NCBI RefSeq assembly: GCF_000172555.1
Contig: NZ_ABOX02000017.1
Location: forward strand, 62,001 to 126,000
From: Pedosphaera parvula Ellin514
GTDB lineage: Bacteria > Verrucomicrobiota > Verrucomicrobiia > Limisphaerales > Pedosphaeraceae
DNA: 64,000 nt
Direction of reading: 5' to 3'
Numbering within the stretch: position 1 is the stretch's first letter; every line of letters starts with the position of its first letter. Shown here piece by piece: positions 2,425-7,285 of this stretch. The position numbers were made by a program, and so were the translations under genes. The notes under the pieces were generated by a model. The model did no database searches. It saw only the letters and a list, made by a program, of their open reading frames with translations, and was not told the DNA's origin.

Positions 2425-3201
2425 CTATTGCTTCTTCTTGAACAAATCGGTGACCCCTTTAGCTGCCTTATTCAAGTCATCAACACTTCCCTTACCCAGA
2501 TTCTTGCCAATGTCTTTAAGTTGCTTGCCGCCATCCGCGATGGCTTTGGTCCCAGCTTCCACCGCCCCTGCCAGAATCGGCTTCAATATTTGCCGAGATA
2601 ATTCCGCAGCCGAAACCCCACCTTCCCCGGTGCCAACGTTTTGCAAATGGATGTCAGGAATCGGTACGGTCATCCCCAAAGTCTGGCCCAAAGCAGTGAT
2701 ATTGAGGTGCACCTTTGCACCGTTCACAACAATGTCCTTCACTATGAATTTCTTTTCCTTCTTACCCGCAGTCGGTTCGTTCTTCACCTTCTCCTTCGTT
2801 TCGCTGGTCGAATTAAGATTTTCCAGGATCTTGCTCAAATTATTCCCGGTTAAGGTTCCCTCCATGGTGATTTCAGGAGCCTGAATATTGATTTGCTCCA
2901 CCATGATGGTATCTGACAACACAGAGCCCACCTTAACAGCCACTTTGACGTCACCCACCTGGATGGCGGAAGCAGTTTTATAACCTTCCGGATTGCCCAC
3001 GAACAATTTGCTCAACTGCCCGCTCCCTCCAAATGGAGAGATGTTCGCGGAACCCAGCTTCACATCGACTTTTGTGATCTGAGGCCCCACCGTTTCCACT
3101 CCCTTTTTCACAATGGAATTCAGTGAAAAGAAAACTGCCACCAGCGCCACCACGAGCAGGATGCCCAGTCCGAGAACAATTCGAATCAATGTTTTTTTCA
3201 T
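2425..3201 (-). CDS. AsmA-like membrane-anchored envelope protein
   Basis: 258 aa with one N-terminal membrane segment (about residues 6-27, IRIVLGLGILLVVALVAVFF) and the rest probably periplasmic. After the anchor comes an AsmA-type pattern: short beta-rich stretches such as VDVKLGSANISPFGGSGQL, VGDVKVAVKVGSVLSDTIMV and INIQAPEITMEGTL, then a Lys/Glu-rich linker (about 130-150), then VNGAKVHLNIT. The C-terminus is an alanine/lysine-rich helical region (KAIADGGKQLKDIGKNLGKG). AsmA-related proteins act in outer-membrane lipid or protein homeostasis, but this one is much shorter than classical AsmA and no specific role can be assigned. It is a single gene between alaS and the RNA/rarA region. 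Confidence 0.6.
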   Translation of the reverse strand: MKKTLIRIVLGLGILLVVALVAVFFSLNSIVKKGVETVGPQITKVDVKLGSANISPFGGSGQLSKLFVGNPEGYKTASAIQVGDVKVAVKVGSVLSDTIMVEQINIQAPEITMEGTLTGNNLSKILENLNSTSETKEKVKNEPTAGKKEKKFIVKDIVVNGAKVHLNITALGQTLGMTVPIPDIHLQNVGTGEGGVSAAELSRQILKPILAGAVEAGTKAIADGGKQLKDIGKNLGKGSVDDLNKAAKGVTDLFKKKQ

Positions 3202-3370
3202 ATTAAAGTGTCATTCGGTGCCACTGCGGAAAAAATGCCTTTCCGCCAGACAATACCTCGGCCATGGTTGGGTTCGGAGCCATGCAGGTCAAGCGCATTC
3301 AATGGCCGTGTTGTAAAGAAAAATCTTGGCAATTAGGGTGATGACCCGCTGAATTTTTTGAAATATTTCC

Positions 3371-3398
3371 TTGAGAAAAACACACAATTCGCTAATAC
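3371..3398 (+). promoter_or_regulatory. Candidate sigma70-type promoter for the structured RNA
   Basis: TTGAGA (3371-3376), a 16-nt spacer and TAATAC (3393-3398) resemble a vegetative promoter. It would start transcription near 3405, about 50 nt upstream of the rod-like RNA fold. A promoter closer to the fold cannot be excluded. Confidence 0.3.
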
Positions 3399-3455
3399 TT
3401 TTTGCAGTTGAATGCGCATAAAAAGTTGAGTGCGCCACGCTCTTTGTAAACAAGT

Positions 3456-3684
3456 TTGAGCACCAGATTTTACCCTGCCATGTTCGTGCTCCTAGCAAAA
3501 ATCCTTGAACCGTAATTAGAAAAACACGGAGCCTCTATTTCGGTTGTCGGCCGACAGGCCTTGACTGGAAGTCGTAAGTGATCGATCGGGCTCCACCTGT
3601 TCCTTAAAAAGTTCAAAGGGACTGTTATACACGGCATTACGGTGGGGTACTCTTTAAAACTCATCCACACGGATGAGTTTTTTG
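3456..3684 (+). ncRNA. ssrS: Candidate 6S-like RNA upstream of rarA
   Basis: A non-coding stretch of about 195 nt can fold as one long interrupted rod, as 6S RNA does. Nested pairings read by eye are 3458-3464 with 3646-3652 (one mismatch), TGCC 3476-3479 with GGCA 3633-3636, CCTTGAAC 3503-3510 with 3611-3619 (one bulge), AACA 3523-3526 with TGTT 3598-3601, and GGAGCC 3528-3533 with GGCTCC 3589-3594. The loop holds a small hairpin near 3560-3580. A perfect intrinsic terminator follows directly. 6S RNA genes are often found beside the folate cyclo-ligase gene (ygfA/fau) or rarA, and both follow here. The known role is to bind housekeeping RNA polymerase as a promoter mimic. The identity is an inference from structure and synteny; no primary-sequence match could be tested. 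tmRNA and SRP RNA signatures are absent. Confidence 0.5.
3657..3684 (+). terminator. Intrinsic terminator after the candidate 6S RNA
   Basis: A perfect 9-bp stem (AACTCATCC / GGATGAGTT, 3658-3666 with 3671-3679) with an ACAC loop is followed by TTTTG. It sits 39 bp before the rarA start, so it ends a transcript from upstream rather than rarA itself. Confidence 0.8.
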
Positions 3685-3722
3685 TTTTGGGCGAGTCCTC
3701 CCAAACCTGATATATTAATCCC

Positions 3723-5096
3723 ATGTCGCGGGACGACCTGTTTGCCACCCCCAAAGAACCTGAGGCCAGTGCTTTAGAGAACACTGAACCCCAACCGGTT
3801 CGGCATATGCCGTTGGCAGCACGCATGCGCCCCCGCAATCTTTCTGAATACATCGGTCAATCACACATCCTTGGCCCGGGCCAACTGCTCCGCCGGGCCA
3901 TCGAAGCCGATCGCATCCAATCGCTCATTTTCTACGGTCCACCCGGCACAGGCAAAACCTCGCTCGCTCAAATCATCGCTCTCCAAACCAGCAGCAAATT
4001 TGAGCGCCTTAGCGGCGTCGAATCCAACGTGGCCGATATGCGCCGCGTCCTGTCCGCTGCATCCAATCGGCTCGAAAATACCGGCCAACCGACCATCTTG
4101 TTCGTCGACGAAATCCATCGCTTCAATAAATCGCAGCAGGATGTCCTCCTGCCTGACGTGGAAAGCGGCGTCATTCGTCTGATCGGTGCCACTACTCACA
4201 ATCCATTTTTCTTCGTCAACTCCCCGTTGGTCTCACGATCGCAAATATTTGAATTACGCCCTCTCACCGAAGAGGAACTCTACCAGTTGCTTCAACGCTC
4301 CCTTCAAGATCCCGAGCGCGGTCTGGGCTACATGAAAATCCATGTGGATGAAGCCGCCTTGCGCCACCTCGCCAAACTTTCTGATGGCGACGCTCGCAAA
4401 GCCTTGAATTCTCTCGAAATCGCCGCACTCACCACCTCTCCCGAAGCCAACGGCATCATCCATATCGATCTCGCCGTTGCCGAACAAAGCATCCAACGCA
4501 AAGCCGTGGTGTATGACGGGGATGGCGATGCCCATTACGACACCATCTCTGCCTTCATCAAATCCATGCGCGGCAGCGATGCCGATGCCACGCTTTACTG
4601 GCTCGCCAAAATGATTCACGCCGGTGAAGATCCCCGCTTCATCTCGCGACGCATCGTCATCTGTGCTGCTGAAGATGTCGGCCTGGCTGATCCCATGGCA
4701 CTCGTCCTCGCCAATGCGGCGCACCAAGCCGCCGAATTCATCGGCTGGCCCGAGGCGCGCATTCCCATCGCCGAAGCTGCGATCTACATTGCCACTGCCA
4801 TTAAAAGCAACACGAGCATTACCGCCATCGATGCAGCATTGGCCGATGTCCGTTCCGGTCGCACTCTGCCCGTCCCCGAGCATCTGCGCGATGCCCATTA
4901 TGCTGGTGCAGAACGTCTCGGCCACGGCAAAGGCTACGAATACGCCCACGATCACCCCGACCACTTTGCTTCTCAGGATTATCTCGGAGCCGACAAACAC
5001 TACTACGAGCCCACCGATCAAGGTGTGGAGAAGAAGATCAAGGAGCGGGTTGAGAAATGGCGCGCCTTGCTGGCCCAGTCCAGAAAACCTAAATGA
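3723..5096 (+). CDS. rarA: Replication-associated recombination protein A (MgsA/WRNIP1 family AAA ATPase)
   Basis: 457-aa AAA+ ATPase related to clamp-loader subunits, thought to act at stalled replication forks. Visible features are the N-terminal [11 protein letters not shown] segment typical of the family, Walker [10 protein letters not shown] (about residue 70), Walker [12 protein letters not shown], and sensor-1 type [10 protein letters not shown]. The C-terminal family domain contains [31 protein letters not shown] and [17 protein letters not shown]. Length is normal. The ATG at 3723 is the first start after the RNA terminator. The next gene starts 9 bp after its stop, so rarA, fau and rny probably form one operon. 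Confidence 0.96.
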
Positions 5097-5105
5097 CAAT
5101 TCGTC

Positions 5106-5726
5106 ATGGATAACAGCCCTTCCCCCAACCATATCCATAAGCACGAGAAAGCCACACTGCGAGCGAAAGTCCGGACCGAAGTGAAAAAGCTTTCTCAGGC
5201 AGAACGACAGTCCTTGTCCCTCCAACTCTGCTCCTTATTGGAACAACAGGAAATTTGGAAACAGGCTCAGTCCATATTGTTCTATGCACCTCTACCAGAT
5301 GAACCTGACATTTGGAAACTGGTGGAGGATTCAATTGCTACCGGAAAAACCGTCCTATTGCCTCGCTTCCATCCTGAACAAAATCAGTATGTTGCATGCC
5401 ATATAAAGAATATTCCCCGGGATCTCTCCACCGGTCAGTATGGAGTCCGTGAACCAAACGAATTTTGTTCCACAATTTCTTTAAACCATCTGGACTTGAT
5501 ACTCGTACCTGGGGTAGCATTCGACTTTGCTGGACACCGGCTTGGTCGGGGGAAGGGGTTTTATGACCAACTGCTGGAAGTTCTGCACGGTACGACTTGT
5601 GGAGTGGCATTTGATCAGCAAATTTTGGATAAGGTCCCTGTCGAACCGCATGACATTCGTTTGAGTTGCATCTTGACGCCGACGCGCTGGCAATCAGCAA
5701 CACCGCCGCGCCCGGTCTTGAAATGA
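5106..5726 (+). CDS. fau: 5-formyltetrahydrofolate cyclo-ligase
   Basis: 206 aa. Converts 5-formyl-THF to 5,10-methenyl-THF using ATP. The diagnostic segment LVPGVAFDFAGHRLGRGKGFYDQLL is present (about 136-160), and the N-terminal KATLRAKVRTEVKKLS helix carries the ATP-contact lysine/arginine residues typical of the family. The segment ILFYAPLPDEPDIWKL is also characteristic. Its TGA overlaps the ATG of rny (ATGA, 5723-5726), implying translational coupling. In proteobacteria this gene (ygfA) is the classic downstream neighbour of 6S RNA, matching the candidate RNA found one gene upstream. Confidence 0.93.
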   Translation: MDNSPSPNHIHKHEKATLRAKVRTEVKKLSQAERQSLSLQLCSLLEQQEIWKQAQSILFYAPLPDEPDIWKLVEDSIATGKTVLLPRFHPEQNQYVACHIKNIPRDLSTGQYGVREPNEFCSTISLNHLDLILVPGVAFDFAGHRLGRGKGFYDQLLEVLHGTTCGVAFDQQILDKVPVEPHDIRLSCILTPTRWQSATPPRPVLK

Positions 5727-7285
5727 TCCTGGTGGGAAATATTTATGCAGAAGGCGCCTGCCTTGTCGTTGGCGCAGTGCTTTGCTATCTTCTTTTGTGG
5801 TTGCGAGACCGCAATGCAAGAAAGCTCCAAGCTCTTCAACTCCAAACCCTTCTGGAGAACGCCCGCCGCGATGCTGAAGCCTTCGTTCGCGATGCGCGCC
5901 TCGCTGCCAACGAAGAAGCGCTCAAAATCCGCGAACAAACAGAACAATCCTTTACCGCACGCAGGCAGGAACGCGCCGAACTCGAACGCCGCCTCAGCGA
6001 ACGCGAAACATTGATCAATACCCAACTGGAAGGCGTGGTCCAGGCTGAGAGAAGTTTACGTGAACAAAAGGATGTGCTGAAGCGAAAGGCTGACTTGCTG
6101 GATTCACAGCAACAGGAACTGGAGGGGCTCATCAAACTTCGCCGCGAACAACTCGAGAATCTTTCCCGACTTTCCGAAGACGAAGCTCGCACCCAATTTC
6201 TTAAGGAAGTTGAAATGGAGGCGATGCGCGATGCCAGTAATCTGACACGGCACATTGTCGAGGATGCGAAATCCAAGGCTGAGGAAAAAGCCCGGCAGAT
6301 AATTAGTGTGGCCATTCAGCGTTACGCAGGGGATCACACATTCGAAACCAGCACCGCCACCATTGCCCTCCAGGGAGAGGAAATGAAAGGCCGCATCATT
6401 GGTCGTGATGGCCGCAATATCCGCGCTTTCGAAGCTGCGACTGGCATCACGGTTTTAATCGATGATACCCCGAACGCAGTCGTGCTCTCCGGTTTCGACC
6501 CGGTTCGGCGCGAAATTGCGCGTGAAGCCATGAATCGCCTGATTCTTGATGGACGAATCCATCCCACTCGCATCGAGGAAATAGTTGCCAAGGTCACCCA
6601 GGAAATGGATGAAACCATTGTGCGACTTGGTGATGAAGCAGTCGCCAAGACTGGCCTCTCACCGATGCATCCAGAAATCATCAAACTTCTCGGTCGCCTC
6701 CATTTCCGCCACAGTTACTCCCAAAACATCTTGAACCACTCAATCGAAGTTGCCCATCTAATGGGCCTGATGGCTTCAGAATTGGGAATCGATGTTTCCC
6801 TCGCCAAACGCACTGGGCTGCTACATGACATTGGCAAAGCCGTAAACCACGAGATTGAAGGTCCTCACGCTGTTGTAGGCGCTGATATCATCAAAAGGCA
6901 CGGGGAATCTGATGCCGTTGTAAACGGCGTCGCCTCCCATCATAATGATATTCCTCCCATCGGCCCATTGGGCATTCTGGTCAGCGCTGCTGACGCCATC
7001 AGCGCATCACGCCCTGGCGCCCGCTCGGAGAACATGGCTACTTATTTGAAGCGCGTGGATGATCTTGAAAAGATCGCTTTGTCCTTCCCCGGAGTGGAAA
7101 AATGCTTTGCCGTTCAGGCGGGACGTGAACTTCGTATCATGGTCCAACCTGAGCAGGTTTCAGACGACCAGGCATTTGCCCTCGCCCGGAATATCGCCTC
7201 CAAAATCGAAAATGATCTGCAATATCCGGGGCAAATTAAGATCACGGTCATTCGGGAAACACGCTGCGTGGAAGTCGCCAAGTAG
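5723..7285 (+). CDS. rny: Ribonuclease Y
   Basis: 520 aa when started at the ATG overlapping the fau stop; an upstream in-frame start at 5666 would add 19 residues lying wholly inside fau and is unlikely. Membrane-anchored endoribonuclease that initiates mRNA decay. Domains in order: N-terminal membrane segment (GACLVVGAVLCYLLLWL), long charged coiled coil (about 30-200), KH domain with GRIIGRDGRNIRAFEAATG, then an HD domain with HSIEVAHLMGL and LLHDIGKAVNHEIEG plus ASHHNDIPP. Length equals that of the Bacillus enzyme. It is the last gene of the rarA-fau-rny group. No clear terminator is visible in the 145 bp after it except the bidirectional hairpin at 7431-7466. Confidence 0.96.
   Translation: MILVGNIYAEGACLVVGAVLCYLLLWLRDRNARKLQALQLQTLLENARRDAEAFVRDARLAANEEALKIREQTEQSFTARRQERAELERRLSERETLINTQLEGVVQAERSLREQKDVLKRKADLLDSQQQELEGLIKLRREQLENLSRLSEDEARTQFLKEVEMEAMRDASNLTRHIVEDAKSKAEEKARQIISVAIQRYAGDHTFETSTATIALQGEEMKGRIIGRDGRNIRAFEAATGITVLIDDTPNAVVLSGFDPVRREIAREAMNRLILDGRIHPTRIEEIVAKVTQEMDETIVRLGDEAVAKTGLSPMHPEIIKLLGRLHFRHSYSQNILNHSIEVAHLMGLMASELGIDVSLAKRTGLLHDIGKAVNHEIEGPHAVVGADIIKRHGESDAVVNGVASHHNDIPPIGPLGILVSAADAISASRPGARSENMATYLKRVDDLEKIALSFPGVEKCFAVQAGRELRIMVQPEQVSDDQAFALARNIASKIENDLQYPGQIKITVIRETRCVEVAK

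Follow-up and report, generated by a model that had tools for sequence, protein, structure and literature searches.

A 6S RNA gene in Pedosphaera parvula with a boxA-like element in its leader

Results

The 6S RNA locus and its features

6S RNA acts as a brake on bacterial RNA polymerase. A gene encoding such an RNA, an assignment that is near certain as far as a sequence can tell, is located on the forward strand of the 64,000 nucleotide stretch of Pedosphaera parvula Ellin514 analysed here, which we refer to as the window. It is preceded by a putative promoter and a leader, followed by the genes rarA, fau and rny and contains the following features:

3371–3399, + strand: promoter-like TTGAGA-N17-AATACT, from which a 6S precursor is predicted to start about 60 nt before the mature RNA (9/12 matches, 0.5 expected in the region)
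3439–3449, + strand: boxA-like element GCTCTTTGTAA, part of the 6S leader, with a 10/11 match to GYTCTTTGAAA (motif counts, controls)
3469–3652, + strand: 6S RNA, ssrS (RF00013 with 63.9 bits, alignment, covariation)
3472–3488, + strand: 5' strand of the closing stem, partner 3630–3648 (alignment, covariation)
3502–3510, + strand: 5' strand of helix P2 and predicted pRNA template TCCTTGAAC, partner 3611–3620 (near-invariance, covariation)
3513–3527, + strand: 5' central bubble (structure)
3528–3594, + strand: apical arm with the strands of the upstream promoter mimic (structure, covariation)
3599–3622, + strand: alternative hairpin of the 3' central bubble, pairing GUUCCUU (3599–3605) with AAGGGAC (3616–3622) and sharing part of the P2 3' strand (covariation)
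3656–3681, + strand: intrinsic-terminator-like stem of 11 pairs with a T tail (one site found, 0.8 expected from regional shuffles)
3723–5096, + strand: rarA (mgsA; PF12002 MgsA_C, PF16193)
5106–5726, + strand: fau, 5-formyltetrahydrofolate cyclo-ligase (TIGR02727)
5666–7285, + strand: rny, ribonuclease Y, whose TTG start as listed overlaps fau (TIGR03319, match from residue 32)

In a cmscan search of the window against all 4227 Rfam families, the 6S family RF00013 matched at 3469–3652 on the plus strand with 63.9 bits, compared to a gathering score of 46.4 (E 2.5e-10), in an alignment that extends over the full length of the model (positions 1–187 of 187). It is the sole family above its gathering cut-off anywhere in the window, and no competing Rfam family was found within 3000–4200, where the next-best match to a snoRNA family is at the level of noise (E 1.4). 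This is the comparison that an earlier note on the same DNA had suggested when it named 6S RNA as best explanation for the interval 3456–3684, a proposal which is borne out by the score, by covariation among orthologues and by the linkage to rarA described below. The interval comprises the 6S RNA proper, the terminator-like stem and 13 nt of the leader. It folds into a single long rod of nested helices, as the note had described, with an energy of –74.4 kcal/mol compared to a mean of –57.6 kcal/mol in shuffled sequences (sd 4.25, z –3.96, 0/200 as stable). The terminator placed by the note directly after the rod corresponds to the stem and T tail at 3656–3681, and a terminator-like site is present in just 16 of 50 homologues. 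Its statement that the region lacks an open reading frame holds in effect, as the mechanically predicted frames crossing the 6S RNA (3470–3853, 127 aa; 3289–3498, 69 aa) are all located on the antisense strand. A second copy of the 6S gene was not found in the genome of the organism.

The structure was further characterized in an alignment of 50 order-level 6S sequences, which was prepared by MAFFT from sequence only and evaluated for the canonical structure of 39 pairs. In this structure, 95.8% of the cells are paired and 18 pairs show changes on both sides, with a covariation score of 0.226 compared to 0.128 in shuffled alignments (0/500 as high), whereas slid structures used as control pair in 33–45% of the cells. 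The earlier note would have regarded a lack of covariation at orthologous loci, combined with the lack of a hit above the gathering cut-off, as evidence against a 6S RNA; the covariation found in these 50 homologues is clear. The length of the homologues varies and their conservation is structural, with the predicted pRNA template CCTTGAACCGTA being near-invariant in the 50 sequences. The synthesis of the pRNA is predicted to start at U3513 or a few nucleotides downstream. A start at U3513 would place a GG at pRNA positions 3–4, compared to the reported positions 4–5 or 5–6 (PMC8414754). As a separate observation, an extra helix absent from the Rfam consensus connects 3493–3497 with the region of 3623–3627 between the closing stem and P2. 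A covariation signal of alignment columns 26–44 with 186–197 (z –4.57) is consistent with this helix, which is also found in the fold of the window's own sequence.

Gene neighbourhood

The families assigned to the three genes downstream of the 6S RNA agree with the order rarA-fau-rny proposed in the earlier note, and the argument that the note had drawn from synteny is strengthened by 30 of the 50 loci from the order, where rarA follows the 6S RNA in the same orientation, at a distance of 31–188 nt in 29 of them and of 927 nt in one. The remaining 20 loci do not show rarA in the available flank, which for many of them comprises just 1.5 kb. The true start of rny may be located further inside the listed frame, since the match to the RNase Y family begins only at residue 32. 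Of 30 6S loci sampled elsewhere in the phylum, 17 show rarA. In named records, the closest relatives of the window's rarA come from Verrucomicrobia MAGs (L032, L033, L034), alongside L031 from a 'bacterium', which points to Verrucomicrobiota as the phylum. Conversely, among rarA-anchored loci, of which 40 of 80 were scanned with Rfam and all 80 with a covariance model described below, a 6S RNA above the cut-off was found in 18 of the 40 scanned with Rfam. In 14 of these it precedes rarA in the same orientation, for L061 at a distance of about 3 kb, and in four, all from Bacillaceae, it is located downstream on the opposite strand. The complete arrangement 6S-rarA-fau-rny is found in 6 of 20 longer loci of the order and also in L031, L033, L037, L042 (Omnitrophota) and L069. 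On the other side of the 6S RNA, a divergent gene (2425–3201, minus strand) shows a DUF748/AsmA-like match (PF05359, 58.9 bits compared to a cut-off of 50), and most loci from the window's family have a relative upstream of the 6S RNA (L003, L005, L010, L012, L028).

Distribution of 6S RNA in the phylum

Matches to RF00013 were obtained in 50 of 58 genomes, including the own genome and mostly from the same order, in 47 cases above the cut-off. A covariance model built from these 50 order-level sequences (R1) yielded strong matches in four of the eight genomes missed by RF00013; two of the other four showed no match and two only matches with E of at least 0.5. In a sample of 288 genomes of the phylum, RF00013 matches 151 at E 0.01, of which 103 exceed the cut-off, and R1 matches 61, including nine that were missed by RF00013 when comparing both listings. 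6S RNA is thus common across Verrucomicrobiota genomes, with some genera below the cut-off. The view of the earlier note that it is little discussed in this phylum agrees with the literature searched, yet not with its frequency in genomes; the phylum-wide spread and the boxA-like leader element were both absent from that account. Four genomes without RF00013 match (G099, G111, G129 and G208, and similarly G182 and G314) contain R1 matches of 46–88 bits, in a lineage that the Rfam model seems to miss. Within the same class, many genomes of genus g57 contain 6S candidates of about 25–45 bits, below the gathering score, which may be divergent 6S RNAs.

A boxA-like element in the 6S leader

BoxA is a signal best known from rRNA genes. 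An alignment of the region upstream of the 6S RNA in seven loci of the window's family shows a conserved GCTCTTTG, which we take to be boxA-like. The element is visible by eye in most of the 50 loci of the order, and four rRNA leaders carry the same word or nearly so. For its quantification, we used a rule with at least 9/11 matches to GYTCTTTGAAA at 8–70 nt upstream of the 6S RNA and applied the same rule to RNase P, tmRNA and rRNA as controls. Since this rule was set after viewing the 6S upstream regions and the four rRNA leaders, exact counts are somewhat favourable. By this rule, the element is found in 40 of 50 6S loci of the order and missed in 10, at a background of 1.1% in shuffled sequences and 1.3% in other windows of the same loci. 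The median distance to the mature 6S RNA is 17 nt in these 40 loci (range 9–55 nt), compared to 19 nt in the window. When applied over an identical distance upstream of RNase P (0/24) and tmRNA (0/19), the rule gave no match, and the comparison of 6S with these two combined yields a Fisher p of 3.5e-17, while the rRNA leaders of related genomes contain the element in 18 of 19 cases within 200 nt upstream of 16S. From these controls, 1 of 25 RNase P, 11 of 30 tmRNA and 2 of 21 16S loci had been removed for being cut at a contig end, partial or weak. A 16S rRNA gene was not found in the own genome assembly, so the correspondence to rRNA leaders refers to related genomes and not to the organism itself. 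The own genome encodes NusB, with two matches to PF01029 in open frames of 189 and 451 aa.

Among further loci, the element is present in one of four extra loci of the order (and missed in three) and in 10 of 30 loci from the rest of the phylum. Of 19 loci from other groups that were anchored on rarA, two contain it and 17 do not. In a wider sample covering 8–90 nt upstream, other classes are represented by 56 loci, 25 of which carry the element (14/29 families), and it was found in 4 of 52 loci from other orders of the same class (missed in 48). In the literature searched, we found no report of a boxA in front of a 6S gene.

Together, these counts make a strong sequence case for a boxA in the 6S leader. 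The same data would have to be read differently if the RNA were a plain 6S RNA and GYTCTTTG a DNA element, such as part of a promoter or the site of a regulator, or a site of RNA processing. Such a reading, to which we assign a low though not negligible probability, draws on the rather fixed distance between the element and the mature end, with its median gap of 17 nt, and on the limited number of loci with a 9/12 promoter upstream of the element, as TTGAGA-N16-18-NATANT is found there in 15 of 40 loci at 9/12 matches or better (6.4% in shuffles) and in 27 of 40 at 8/12 or better (24.5% in shuffles). Conversely, the element matches the one that related genomes contain in 18 of 19 rRNA leaders, and with a distance to the RNA that varies between 9 and 55 nt it is not placed as a –35 or –10 region of a start at the mature end would be. 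Moreover, the element agrees with positions 1–7 of the boxA consensus GYTCTTTAANA, which is a gamma-proteobacterial one and originates from a survey described as leaving out non-coding RNAs (PMC5725501).

A hairpin of the 3' central bubble in an altered register

The alternative hairpin at 3599–3622 competes with P2, the helix containing the predicted pRNA template. In a permutation test, where strands were swapped among species and pairing energies within and between species were compared, the 3' bubble and the outer part of the P2 3' strand show –5.70 kcal/mol within compared to –4.97 kcal/mol between species (0/5000 as good, z –4.8), with 0/5000 being retained after removal of the window's family. 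P2 itself hardly covaries in this test (260/5000 as good) because it is almost invariant. Among 241 distinct column pairs that hold no canonical pairs, the outer hairpin has the most extreme value (z –4.68), although the effect on energy is modest, a second column pair reaches –4.57 and an unrelated control pair scored 16/2000. In a sister species (L028), a double change from C-G to G-C preserves a pair of the outer hairpin, while the P2 pair in columns 37–182 is lost. Outside the order, a set of 29 sequences was considered (with L154 dropped for its near-identity to L153 and L160 not being aligned by R1). There, the outer hairpin is unsupported (706/5000) and an inner hairpin of the 3' bubble of the type ACCUCG/CGAGGU is strong (0/5000, 28 sequences); inside the order the inner hairpin is weak (18/5000). 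These results constitute a good covariation case for a 3'-bubble hairpin in the order that sits in a different register from the rest of the phylum. A shorter GUUC/GAAC hairpin chosen by RNAalifold was rejected, as it shows weak covariation despite 86.4% paired cells (50/2000 permutations as good) and, when the 3' strand is taken alone, is the preferred fold in just 25 of 50 sequences, with the longer GUUYCU/AGGAAC fitting better.

In E. coli-type 6S RNAs, a hairpin of the 3' bubble and the P2 3' strand is described to drive release from the polymerase, whereas B. subtilis 6S-1 and the RNA of A. aeolicus employ a central bubble collapse helix instead (PMC8876501). By analogy, the hairpin in the window's order would be an E. 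coli-like release element. That the RNA is instead of the B. subtilis type, released by a collapse helix and devoid of a 3'-bubble hairpin, follows a precedent in the two latter systems but appears unlikely, since the pairing of the 5' bubble with the P2 3' strand that it would require shows no covariation (1431/5000), compared to 0/5000 for the 3'-bubble hairpin.

The P2 3' strand also features in a proposal where the leader element pairs with the 6S RNA in the precursor, for example with CAAAGGAAC of this strand, to keep the precursor inactive. By eye, GUUCUUUG can indeed pair with CAAAGGAAC with one bulge. Still, we consider such a role highly improbable and reject preferential pairing, as the element interacts with its own 6S RNA no better than shuffled elements do (–8.64 compared to –8.63 kcal/mol), 204 of 300 permutations with the 6S RNA of other species were as good, and the same null result was obtained in 25 loci outside the order, where the sequence of P2 differs.

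Discussion

The RNA itself is an ordinary 6S RNA. The contrary assumption of another structured RNA, a coding stretch or a chance structure, for which the antisense frames crossing the region could be quoted, has almost no probability in light of an RF00013 match above the curated cut-off with no competitor, the covariation, the conserved rod and the synteny. Less ordinary are its leader and the register of its hairpin, and we regard it as very probable that the 6S RNA is transcribed as a precursor, with NusB and S10 being recruited by the leader.

In the process that we envision, transcription from the promoter, about 60–70 nt upstream, would yield a 6S precursor with boxA in its leader. The rod, as expected from its family membership, would mimic an open promoter and occupy the RNA polymerase carrying the housekeeping sigma factor, until the polymerase copies a pRNA off the P2 5' strand and thereby releases the 6S RNA. 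The synthesis of the pRNA would free the P2 3' strand, which could then fold into the covarying hairpin of the 3' central bubble. The part of boxA in this process is argued by analogy with rRNA. In E. coli rRNA operons, boxA binds NusB/S10 and is required for the antitermination complex, and according to a tether model it anchors the leader to the polymerase, with the RNA looping out and pairing between leader and trailer thereby made possible (PMC10250234). The geometry of the 6S gene appears rRNA-like, with a 5' arm at a median of 17 nt past boxA and a 3' arm that would be made about 150–180 nt later. NusB/S10 bound to boxA might thus keep the nascent 5' end at the polymerase and aid the encounter of the 5' and 3' arms, as proposed for the leader-trailer helix of rRNA. 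It might also shield the untranslated 6S precursor from Rho, of which non-coding RNAs are regarded as likely targets (PMC4807359).

Such an arrangement hints at a transcription control shared by the 6S brake and the genes of the ribosome. A more far-reaching and tentative version, which we consider possible but rather doubtful, holds that in much of Verrucomicrobiota the 6S gene is a Nus-factor gene, where boxA would tie synthesis and folding of 6S to NusB and free S10 and its output would be set by the antitermination machinery of rRNA. If true, a drop in rRNA synthesis would liberate S10 and NusB and in turn favour 6S, providing direct feedback between the making of ribosomes and the availability of polymerase. 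With a boxA at 6S conserved in the order, a global inhibitor of the polymerase would join rRNA and a small number of protein genes under Nus-factor control. The shift of the hairpin, in turn, provides a set of naturally occurring variants with which the departure of 6S from the polymerase could be tested.

The locus shares properties with several known systems. As in rRNA leaders, the boxA-like element contains the GYTCTTTGAAA core found in 18 of 19 leaders of related genomes and precedes a structured untranslated RNA with pairing ends. Unlike these leaders, that of 6S is devoid of the TTGAATTGTG that trails boxA in most related rRNA leaders, and it precedes a 184-nt RNA instead of an operon. 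With suhB and other Nus-factor targets it shares the location of boxA outside rRNA operons, whereas the described cases are upstream of protein genes, in a survey whose authors state that non-coding RNAs were not covered (PMC5725501). The linkage to rarA is reminiscent of Lactobacillales 6S and B. subtilis 6S-1, although in the former rarA is described upstream of 6S and in the latter in the opposite direction (PMC8414754), compared to downstream on the same strand in the window; also unlike B. subtilis 6S-1, a collapse helix is unsupported in the window's order. As in E. coli, where the order is ssrS and then fau, fau is found nearby, and since the E. coli ssrS-fau and the Lactobacillales rarA-6S pairs were both known, the window combines two known linkages. 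Unlike in E. coli, rarA is located between 6S and fau, and the 110 nt in front of E. coli ssrS are devoid of a TCTTT core. With E. coli 6S, the RNA shares the rod with its central bubble, the P2 helix with the predicted pRNA template and the hairpin of the 3' bubble with the P2 3' strand (PMC8876501), except that the hairpin in the window uses the outer end of this strand.
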